This document shows positions 46,136 through 50,228 of a stretch of DNA of 64,000 nucleotides, piece by piece. This stretch comes from Christensenella intestinihominis (GTDB lineage Bacteria > Bacillota > Clostridia > Christensenellales > Christensenellaceae): assembly GCF_001678845.1 (NCBI RefSeq), contig NZ_MAIQ01000005.1, positions 128,925 to 192,924 on the forward strand. The letters run 5' to 3'. Both the position numbers and the translations under genes were made by a program. The notes below the pieces were generated by a model. It was not told where the DNA came from and ran no database searches. It worked only from the letters and a program-made list of their open reading frames with translations. Every line of letters begins with the position of its first letter. The first letter of the stretch is position 1.

Positions 46136-46164
46136 TTGCACAAGCCGCTGGCAAGGGCTATAAT
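46136..46164 (+). promoter_or_regulatory. Promoter of the corA leader and corA
   Basis: TTGCAC (46136-46141), 17 bases, TATAAT (46159-46164). Transcription would begin near 46171, giving about 150 bases of leader before corA. Confidence 0.8.
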
Positions 46165-46211
46165 GATAAACGGACGGTTAGTGTTATCAACTCACAGGAG
46201 GTGAGAAATAA

Positions 46212-46286
46212 GTGGACGCAGACCCTAAACGAACGAACTTAAAATACACGGACAGCGGGATGCGTGCAGTATTTCTACGCCGTTAA
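46212..46286 (+). CDS. Leader peptide of corA, candidate Mg2+ sensor (MgtL-like start)
   Basis: 24 codons from GTG 46212, with a strong AGGAGGTGAG ribosome binding site six bases upstream. The peptide starts MDADPKR and ends FLRR. The start resembles MgtL of enteric bacteria (MEPDP...), where acidic residues and Pro right after the start make the ribosome fall off at low Mg2+ and so switch on mgtA. The ORF lies wholly in the 5' leader of a Mg2+ transporter gene and ends 7 bases before a hairpin that covers its ribosome binding site. The sensing role is inference; the ORF and its signals are seen directly. Confidence 0.65.
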   Translation: MDADPKRTNLKYTDSGMRAVFLRR

Positions 46287-46292
46287 CCGCTG

Positions 46293-46310
46293 CCTGCTTT
46301 TGGAAGTAGG
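46293..46310 (+). promoter_or_regulatory. Hairpin sequestering the corA ribosome binding site
   Basis: CCTGCTT (46293-46299), loop TTGG, AAGTAGG (46304-46310). The 3' arm contains the purine-rich AAGTAGGTG that would serve the corA TTG start at 46319. A ribosome ending at the leader stop (46284-46286) would cover or melt it, so leader translation and corA translation should be coupled. Confidence 0.6.
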
Positions 46311-46318
46311 TGAAGCAT

Positions 46319-47260
46319 TTGATTAGAATTTTCAGCTCTGCGGAAAACAATAATTTTAAAGAGATCGACAAACTGGAGCCCGGCGCGTGGGTGCATCTTC
46401 TTGACCCCACGGAGGAAGAACTCGTACAGGTGCGGGACACCCTGCACATTGAAGACGAGTTTATTCGTGCCGCGCTGGACGAGGAAGAAACGGTGCGTAT
46501 CGACGCGGAAGACGACCAGACGCTGGTGCTGGTGGATATCCCGGTTGTCAGTGCGGAGCGCAATTCGTTTATGTATACGACGCTCCCGATGGGCATCATC
46601 ATTACGGCGGATAATATTGTCACGGTCTGCCTGGAAGAAACCTCGATCCTGGAGGACTTCTGGAACAAAAATGTGCGGGGAGGGTTTGACACCTGCAAAA
46701 AAACCCGCTTCCTGCTGCAAATCCTGTATAAAAACGCGGGGAAATATTTGCAATACCTGAAACAGATCGACAAGGCCTCCACGCAGGTGGAAAATGCGCT
46801 GCACAAATCGATGAAAAACAGCGAGCTCATCCAGATGCTCCGGCTTGAGAAGTCGCTCGTTTATTTTTCAACTTCCCTGAAATCGAATGAAATTGTGCTG
46901 GAAAAGATGCTGAAATCAAAAGTAATCCAGCGCTACCCGGACGACCTCGACCTGCTCGAGGACGTAATTATCGAAAATAAACAGGCGATTGAAATGGGAA
47001 CGATCTACAGGGACATCCTTTCGGGAACGATGGACGCGTTTGCCAGCGTGATCTCGAACAACCTGAATATTGTCATGAAAATCCTGACCTCACTGACAAT
47101 CATACTTGCTATCCCGACGGTATTTGCAAGCCTGTGGGGAATGAACGTCGGGGGAATTCCGTTTGCCGACAATCCGTTTGGTTTCCTGTGGGTAACGGTC
47201 ATCGCGCTCGGCGGAACGGGCGTGGCGACCTGGTTTTTATGGAGGAAGAAGATGTTTTAG
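46319..47260 (+). CDS. corA: CorA-family Mg2+/Co2+ transporter
   Basis: 313 residues from TTG 46319 (MIRIFSSAEN), the start that fits homologues and the AGGTG six bases upstream; a GTG at 46310 is too near its site. Large cytoplasmic N-terminal domain, long stalk helix and two C-terminal membrane helices joined by the signature GMN (WGMNVGG). It forms a pentameric channel for Mg2+ uptake. It has a dedicated leader with a small ORF. Confidence 0.93.
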   Translation: MIRIFSSAENNNFKEIDKLEPGAWVHLLDPTEEELVQVRDTLHIEDEFIRAALDEEETVRIDAEDDQTLVLVDIPVVSAERNSFMYTTLPMGIIITADNIVTVCLEETSILEDFWNKNVRGGFDTCKKTRFLLQILYKNAGKYLQYLKQIDKASTQVENALHKSMKNSELIQMLRLEKSLVYFSTSLKSNEIVLEKMLKSKVIQRYPDDLDLLEDVIIENKQAIEMGTIYRDILSGTMDAFASVISNNLNIVMKILTSLTIILAIPTVFASLWGMNVGGIPFADNPFGFLWVTVIALGGTGVATWFLWRKKMF

Positions 47261-48834: not shown

Positions 48835-48881
48835 ATCGTTAATTATAAATCAATGTTTTCTTGATAAGGAGGATGTTTTCT

Positions 48882-50228
48882 TTGGACGACCCTTTAATAT
48901 GGCAGCTTCTTTTGCAGGTGGTTTTGATTGCGGTCAACGCCTTTTTCGCGTCCACCGAAATCGCGGTAATTTCCCTTAACGCAAACAAGGTGCGCCGCAT
49001 GGCGGAGGAAGGGGATAAAAAAGCGAAGCAGATGCTGAAGATGGTGGAGGTGCCCGCGGGCTTCCTCTCCACGATACAGGTTGGCATTACGCTCGCCGGT
49101 TTCCTCGGGAGCGCGTTTGCGGCGGATAACTTTGCCGGCAGGCTGACCGACTGGATGGTCAACGTACAGAAGGTTACGATCCCGCCGGATACGCTCAATA
49201 CCATTGCGGTTATCCTGATTACCCTGATCCTGTCCTACTTCACCCTTGTGTTCGGGGAGTTGGTGCCAAAGCGTATCGCCATGCAGAAACCGGACAAGGT
49301 GGCGCGTGCGTCCGCGGGAGTCATAACGGTTCTTTCCATCGTCATGAGGCCGGTTATCTGGCTGCTTTCAGCCTCGACTAATGGTGTCATGCGCCTTTTG
49401 CGCATGAATCCGAACGAAGAAGAGGAAGCTGTTACGGAAGAGGAAATCCGGTTGATGGTAGACATCGGCGAGGAGAAAGGAGCGATCGAGCCTGCGGAAA
49501 AGGAAATGATCGAAAATATCTTTGAATTTAACAATACCACGGCCAGGGACGTGATGATGCACCGCACGAATGTGACGGCGATCAGGAAAGACGAAACGCC
49601 GGAGGAAATCCTGAAAGTGATCCGTGAAAGCGGGTTATCCCGCTTCCCGGTCTACGGCGAAGATATAGACGATATCGTCGGCATACTGTCTACGCGCGCC
49701 TATCTGCTCAATGAAAAGAGCGACCGGCCAAAGCCGCTCGAGGAAATCATCTATCCGGCCTATTGCGTGCCCGAATCGGTCCATACGGACGTGCTGTTCC
49801 GCGAGATGCAGCGGCAGAAAATCCATATTGCCGTCGTGGTGGATGAATACGGCGGGATGAGCGGTATCGTAACGATGGAAGACCTCCTGGAGGAGATCGT
49901 CGGGAATATTTACGACGAGTTTGACCCGCAGGACGAGCAGGACATTACCGAAGCAAAACCCGGATTGTGGCGCATCTCCGGCGCGGCGGAGATCGACCGC
50001 ATTGCGGAGGCGCTCGATGTAAAGCTGCCGGAGGATGAAGATTTCGATACGCTGGGCGGCCTTGTATACAGCCGTTTGAGCACGATTCCCGTGGATGGCA
50101 GCCATCCCGTGGTGGAGGCGTACGGACTCCATATCCGCGTTGAAAAGCTGGAAGACAGGCGGGTGGAATGGGCGCTTGTTTCCAAAACGGAAGCCAAACC
50201 AAAGCCGGAAAATTCAGGAAAGCAATAG
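48882..50228 (+). CDS. CNNM-CBS-CorC family transporter (hemolysin-like)
   Basis: 448 residues from TTG 48882, nine bases after a perfect AAGGAGG; starts further up overlap that site. N-terminal CNNM (DUF21) membrane domain with four helices (about 1-180), two CBS domains (about 205-325, ending [22 protein letters not shown]) and a C-terminal CorC_HlyC domain. Related proteins export Mg2+ or Co2+; the name hemolysin is historical. It lies two genes downstream of corA but has its own promoter. Confidence 0.92.

Follow-up and report, generated by a model that had tools for sequence, protein, structure and literature searches.

A predicted short ORF in the 5' leader of the Mg2+ importer gene corA of Christensenella, with an acidic-proline start like that of MgtL

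The mgtA genes of Escherichia coli and Salmonella are preceded by the leader peptide MgtL, which starts with MEPDP. The accessible part of one account describes ribosome drop-off at EPDP under low Mg2+, which turns mgtA on, and a general rule for E. coli in which the near-start acidic residues are adjacent or one apart (PMC11282234). Two other upstream ORFs (uORFs) are described in the available portions of further papers. MgtQ precedes mgtB in Salmonella, and abortion of its translation frees a masked ribosome binding site through an alternative stem (PMC8092293). CorL precedes corA in E. coli and Salmonella, is inversely related to corA expression and responds to Mg2+ (PMC11552253). The corA RNA motif, in the excerpt available, is reported from Gammaproteobacteria only (PMC6429828). 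The M-box (ykoK, RF00380) is presented, again in partial text, as a Mg2+-sensing element before corA, mgtE, mgtA and NrmT genes (PMC4072509). A short conserved ORF of mycobacteria, uORF2 (Rv1805A), lies 3' of an M-box and has an invariant proline near its start, according to the part of the paper at hand (PMC12810186). In the literature compared, so far as its text was available, Mg2+-sensing abort leaders have been those of single genes of enteric bacteria.

We found a predicted short ORF, led by a Shine-Dalgarno (SD) sequence, in the 5' leader of the Mg2+ importer gene corA of Christensenella intestinihominis (Table 1). It lies in the window, that is, the whole stretch of DNA that was analysed, 64,000 nucleotides in length. 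An earlier note on this DNA had described a 24-codon ORF with a strong SD sequence and a peptide starting MDADP, and the sequence and its translation bear this out. Like MgtL, as portrayed in the partial account, it is a short ORF before a Mg2+ importer gene with acidic residues at positions 2 and 4 and proline at position 5 (Pro5). The earlier note had drawn this likeness and proposed that an acidic-proline start serves in the leader of a Mg2+ importer, and the comparative evidence given below supports both points.

The differences from the described systems, within the text available on each, are as follows. The target of MgtL is a P-type ATPase and its output is Rho-dependent termination, whereas the leaders described here precede genes for CorA, MgtE and MgtE_N-Nramp transporters, have an output that resembles SD masking or an intrinsic terminator, and occur in a different phylum. 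MgtQ is similar in its acidic codons 2 and 5, close to the start, in the abort and in the release of the ribosome binding site of a Mg2+ transporter gene, but it has 8 codons, lies inside an operon and has a P-type ATPase as target, and its proline codon works by RNA pairing rather than as a residue. CorL is also a uORF within a corA leader, but it starts with UUG, has fewer acidic and proline residues and is Rho-dependent. The M-box, unlike the leaders, is an RNA aptamer without an ORF; it is absent from the window, yet it lies upstream of six of the leaders that were scanned. The mycobacterial uORF2 differs in having its proline at position 7, in being restricted to mycobacteria and in preceding pe20 (PMC12810186). 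We found no report of such a leader in Clostridia or Bacillota in the literature searched, which was mostly outside subscription journals. The working principle is known. In the accessible text of the literature compared we did not find this phylum, these transporter families, the fixed Pro5 spacing or the tandem with an M-box.

Table 1. Features of the corA leader region (window coordinates)
Feature	Coordinates	Strand	Description and basis
Promoter	46136..46164	+	TTGCAC, 17-nt spacer, TATAAT (from sequence); one-base-shifted version matches 10/12
Leader SD sequence	46196..46205	+	AGGAGGTGAG (from sequence); GGAGGTG identical in 6 genus members
Leader ORF	46212..46286	+	MDADPKRTNLKYTDSGMRAVFLRR, 24 residues, GTG start, TAA stop 46284-46286 (translation)
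Codons 2-5	46215..46226	+	D-A-D-P, conserved acidic-Pro motif; proposed ribosome drop-off site
Region 2	46250..46258	+	GGACAGCGG, within leader ORF; able to pair with 46287-46294
Region 3	46287..46299	+	CCGCTGCCTGCTT; partner is region 2, or the corA SD via CCTGCTT
SD-sequestering hairpin	46293..46310	+	7 pairs, loop TTGG (from sequence)
corA SD sequence and start	46308..46321	+	SD AGGTGA 46308-46313, start TTG 46319-46321 (sequence, genus alignment)
corA, Mg2+ transporter	46319..47260	+	PF01544, E 1.2e-53; ORF list begins at GTG 46310

Transcription would start near 46171, and TTGC...TATAAT is recognisable upstream of corA in all six Christensenella genomes that we compared. The earlier note had placed a perfect hairpin over the corA SD. 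The hairpin is present, beginning at the seventh base after the leader stop with arms CCTGCTT (46293-46299) and AAGTAGG (46304-46310), and the AGG of the corA SD lies within it; it is not perfect, as one of its pairs is G.U. The most likely start of corA is the TTG at 46319, and at this position three of the six genus members have TTG and three have ATG. CorA matches from the same genus are 85-96% identical. No Rfam family, including the M-box RF00380, was found at gathering score within the window, in agreement with the earlier note, which saw no M-box. The fold of 46160-46345 as a whole is unexceptional (z -1.26; 24 of 200 shuffles equally stable).

Conservation among related leaders was a point that the earlier note had raised, and the N-terminus MDADPKRT is kept in all six genus members. 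All six share the core of the leader SD and the exact DNA sequence of codons 1-8, and the middle of the ORF is variable. Conservation resumes downstream, in the region 2 core GCGG, still within the ORF, and in region 3 with the corA SD (GCCTGC ... AGGTGA); GCGG and GCCTGC are invariant in the six. All seven positions of the SD hairpin are standard pairs in five of the six members (5/7 in L006). The leader ORF ends just 5' of region 3 in five members, and in the sister species L003 it extends beyond the corA start. The duplex between region 2 and 46287-46294 was -15.2 kcal/mol, and 6.7% of mononucleotide shuffles were as good. Because the register of the stem between regions 2 and 3 shifts between genus members, it was scored sequence by sequence as a duplex instead of by a formal count of covariation; these duplexes are modest, with 1.0 to 9.7% of mononucleotide shuffles equally good.

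We then compared corA upstreams more widely, using 30 loci, the best 80 of 575 and later additions. There were 145 loci with a CorA match at E 1e-20 and at least 150 nt upstream, and 130 after identical upstreams were dropped; these loci are nearest homologues and related by descent. A leader was defined as an SD-preceded ORF of 7-60 residues beginning with M[DE]xxP or M[DE]x[DE]P. The occurrence of an ORF in related corA leaders, on which the earlier note's reading leaned, holds in part: an M[DE]xxP leader is present in 70 of the 130 non-redundant upstreams, 46 of the 130 have M[DE]x[DE]P, and the other 60 have neither motif. In 60 dinucleotide-shuffled sets, the mean number of M[DE]xxP leaders was 0.28 (maximum 2) and that of M[DE]x[DE]P leaders 0.03. 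Upstream of other ORFs of at least 100 amino acids in the same loci, a motif ORF occurred in 1 of 380, these controls being taken mechanically from both strands and many of them not being genes. The shuffles and the other-ORF control rule out a chance ORF.

With M[DE] fixed, 70 loci had proline at position 5, and no other position from 3 to 11 had it in more than 7. With Pro5 fixed, residue 2 was D in 60 and E in 10, and each other residue was found at most twice. Residue 4 was D in 42, G in 13, E in 4, V in 4, I in 3, L in 2 and S in 2. Residue 4 is thus not acidic in 24 of the 70 leaders, and the rule of an acidic pair is not strict. Pro5 is the only invariant residue besides the initiating Met.

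The motif is not restricted to corA. We searched 291 genomes of the class for a broad pattern (GGAGG, 4-10 nt, a start codon and M[DE]x[DE]P) and found 96 places, against about 53 for a reversed control pattern, indicating that many of the 96 are due to chance. At least 15 of the 96 are directly upstream of corA on the same strand, as judged from coordinates, and in the C. intestinihominis genome the corA leader is the only such place. We inspected 36 of the 96. Besides corA, these included three mgtE genes (L127, L135 and L178; PF01769), an MgtE_N/CBS/PRC gene followed by an Nramp gene (L128 and L281, respectively) and two CNNM-type exporter genes with the motif at the start of their own protein (L129 by Pfam, L181 by eye); many others were starts or interiors of unrelated coding frames. 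A stricter pattern (SD followed by M-D-small-D-P) gave 21 places in 299 genomes of the phylum, versus 5 for the reversed pattern. Thirteen of the 21 precede Mg2+ importer genes: five CorA, six MgtE (one of them, L268, cut by a contig end) and two MgtE_N-CBS with Nramp. At L263 the leader resembles that of L264 and the contig ends; the remaining seven were other or coding frames. Six proteins of the strict scan and the Nramp partners in L281 and L282 were checked with Pfam, and the other names were given by eye. As a raw count, 13 of 30 mgtE loci had an M[DE]xxP leader upstream. The MgtE_N-CBS plus Nramp operons L281, L282 and L283 carry an MDxDP leader. Nramp proteins encoded next to an MgtE_N protein are described, in the available part of one paper, as NrmT Mg2+ transporters, one of which seems to carry manganese (PMC4072509), and the products of the operons found here are predicted Mg2+ importers. 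The earlier note had treated the locus as a single convergent case. This no longer holds, as the motif occurs widely in the phylum and is associated with CorA, MgtE and MgtE_N-Nramp genes; five residues are too few to separate common descent from convergence.

Some of the leaders stand in tandem with an M-box. An M-box was upstream of the leader in 4 of 20 chosen leader-positive corA loci (L014, L035, L048 and L066) and in 2 of 15 leader-positive mgtE loci (L203 and L135). Among leader-negative loci, 1 of 20 for corA and 2 of 17 for mgtE had an M-box. The two elements are therefore neither mutually exclusive nor dependent on each other. Mg2+ is suggested as the signal by the targets that the leaders have in common and by the tandem M-box. 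The only M-box match in the C. intestinihominis genome is on another contig (L228, contig C26, 110600-114600), before a P-type ATPase gene that looks, by eye, like mgtA. The Mg2+ sensors of mgtA and corA thus seem to differ within one cell. Another RNA, RAGATH-18, gave a match near a Clostridium corA locus (L080:857-924).

Based on these results, we infer that the leader ORF probably encodes a cis-acting peptide, the stability of its translating ribosome being the readout of cytoplasmic Mg2+. With sufficient Mg2+, the ribosome would pass the acidic-proline start and complete the ORF, and the distal ORF RNA would be barred from pairing. Importer expression would then be kept low by the formation of an SD-sequestering hairpin, as here, or of an intrinsic terminator, as in some relatives. 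At low Mg2+, the ribosome would fall off near codons 2-5, a site proposed by analogy with MgtL, and free the distal ORF RNA (region 2), which could pair with region 3 (the anti-SD or terminator arm) so that the importer is made.

We compared predicted folds of the leaders (ViennaRNA) in an aborted state, in which the RNA from codon 6 is free, and a full state, in which only the RNA past the stop is free. Relative to a shuffled ORF, the aborted state gave a more accessible corA SD in 40 of 55 cluster representatives (means 0.35 vs 0.25; Wilcoxon p 3e-4, which, being taken over related sequences, is not a strict probability; 55 of the 58 representatives entered). The other 15 do not show this trend. 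Strong cases are L055, L092, L123, L046, L060 and L150. In the window, accessibility was 0.16 aborted, 0.19 full and 0.26 shuffled; that is, a switch is not evident, and the best SD-free fold is 7.9 kcal/mol worse. In L005 and L006 a long stem between regions 2 and 3 takes up the anti-SD arm, and in L001 (the window), L002 and L004 this stem reaches the arm by about two pairs. These predicted folds support a possible SD switch for the leader family, and the window's own sequence gives no clear sign of one.

Under permissive criteria, 13 of the 58 corA representatives showed terminator-like hairpins, some of which overlap the SD. L282 and L283 have a terminator, AAATCCCTCC ... GGAGGGATTT, and a stretch like its 3' arm lies upstream, inside the leader ORF. 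The aborted state of L282 folds into an antiterminator, and in L283 the terminator persists in the best aborted fold. L281 is without such a terminator, and its downstream SD is paired in the aborted fold, contrary to the model. The earlier note had held that leader translation sets corA translation without specifying the sign; the folds of relatives favour the logic of MgtL and MgtQ, in which early abort turns the importer on.

The hairpin also invites a reading by translational coupling, in which a ribosome at the leader stop would cover the 5' arm and open the corA SD, so that output would rise with Mg2+. The leader stop is only 6 nt before the hairpin, and the window's own RNA has a weak alternative fold, as coupling would have it. 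However, with simple coupling of this kind corA would go up at high Mg2+, which is the wrong direction for an importer. The spacing between leader stop and corA is widely variable: the two overlap in L003 and are over 100 nt apart in L038, L052, L057 and L162. Some relatives have terminator-like hairpins instead, clearly so in L282 and L283. We consider coupling unlikely. It is also conceivable that a slow Asp-Pro or Gly-Pro bond reports another signal, such as prolyl-tRNA, EF-P, the state of the ribosome or a divalent metal other than Mg2+. Pro5 is invariant while residue 4 may be G, V, I, L or S, and CorA and Nramp proteins can transport other metals, both of which count for such a signal. 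The targets share Mg2+ import, however, and an M-box accompanies 6 of the 35 leader-positive loci scanned, which makes another signal quite improbable.

Two further readings place the constraint elsewhere. If the conserved element were RNA or DNA (a protein site or a riboswitch) and the frame a by-product, the identity of codons 1-8 as DNA across the genus would follow. Among the 58 cluster representatives, however, the codon for Asp2 is GAT in 25 and GAC in 24, and Pro5 is encoded by all four of its codons. Residues 2 and 5 stay the same despite variation at third codon positions, indicating that the first residues are constrained as peptide, and the window has no Rfam match. This codon variation rules out a conserved nucleic-acid site in place of a peptide, and we find the RNA or DNA reading scarcely credible. 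The strong SD and the constraint on the ORF at the peptide level would also fit a small functional protein that acts on the transporter, with its leader position incidental. Against this, conservation covers only about five residues and fades past about residue 9, the peptides range from 11 to 49 residues in length and differ in the remainder, and one start serves CorA, MgtE and Nramp-type transporters. A functional protein is, in our judgement, very unlikely.

A cis-acting leader peptide of the kind that we prefer would have wider implications. The look-alikes before three unrelated kinds of importer across the phylum suggest that Mg2+ sensing by ribosome drop-off is widespread. If true, a phylum-wide family would make drop-off at acidic-proline starts a general sensor of Mg2+, and Mg2+-regulated genes could be predicted by a simple rule. 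Where an M-box and a leader stand in tandem, two sensors of one ion could be compared on one message.

Exporters may use the same motif in the opposite sense. A CNNM/CorC-type gene (by Pfam) lies two genes downstream of corA, with a TTG start at 48882 and the N-terminus MDDPLIW, behind AAGGAGGATG (window 48864-48905). Mg2+ efflux is the role described for CNNM-CBS-CorC proteins, CorB among them, and enteric CorC (YbeX) reportedly destabilises ribosomes with its N-terminus, in the accessible part of one paper (PMC12421838). [DE]P occurs within the first six residues of 17 of 30 CNNM homologues versus 16 of 398 SD-started control ORFs, a comparison in which starts were picked by SD score, many sequences are closely related and the control still includes CNNM genes. 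Mg2+-dependent self-abort of the exporter, a mirror of the leader, is possible. More broadly, M-[D/E]-x-[D/E]-P could be a portable, ribosome-read Mg2+ sensor with one sign in the leader ORFs of CorA, MgtE and MgtE_N-Nramp genes and the opposite sign in the coding starts of CNNM/CorC exporters (MDDP, MEIDP and MDADP), where low Mg2+ would abort the exporter. We put this forward tentatively and lean slightly against it; if true, import and export would both be set by a single ribosomal property, working alongside the M-box or in tandem with it.

The natural variation in the residue before Pro5 (D, E, G, V, I, L and S) could reveal which residues set the threshold. Upstream of four mgtE genes (L213, L217, L209 and L225) there are two leaders starting MEVP and two starting MDV without an early proline, and these are possible further variants. 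The corA upstreams of L077 and L025 have SD-led short ORFs with an acidic start and no Pro5 (MDNDSGG and MEDGHSP), perhaps decayed or divergent forms of the leader.
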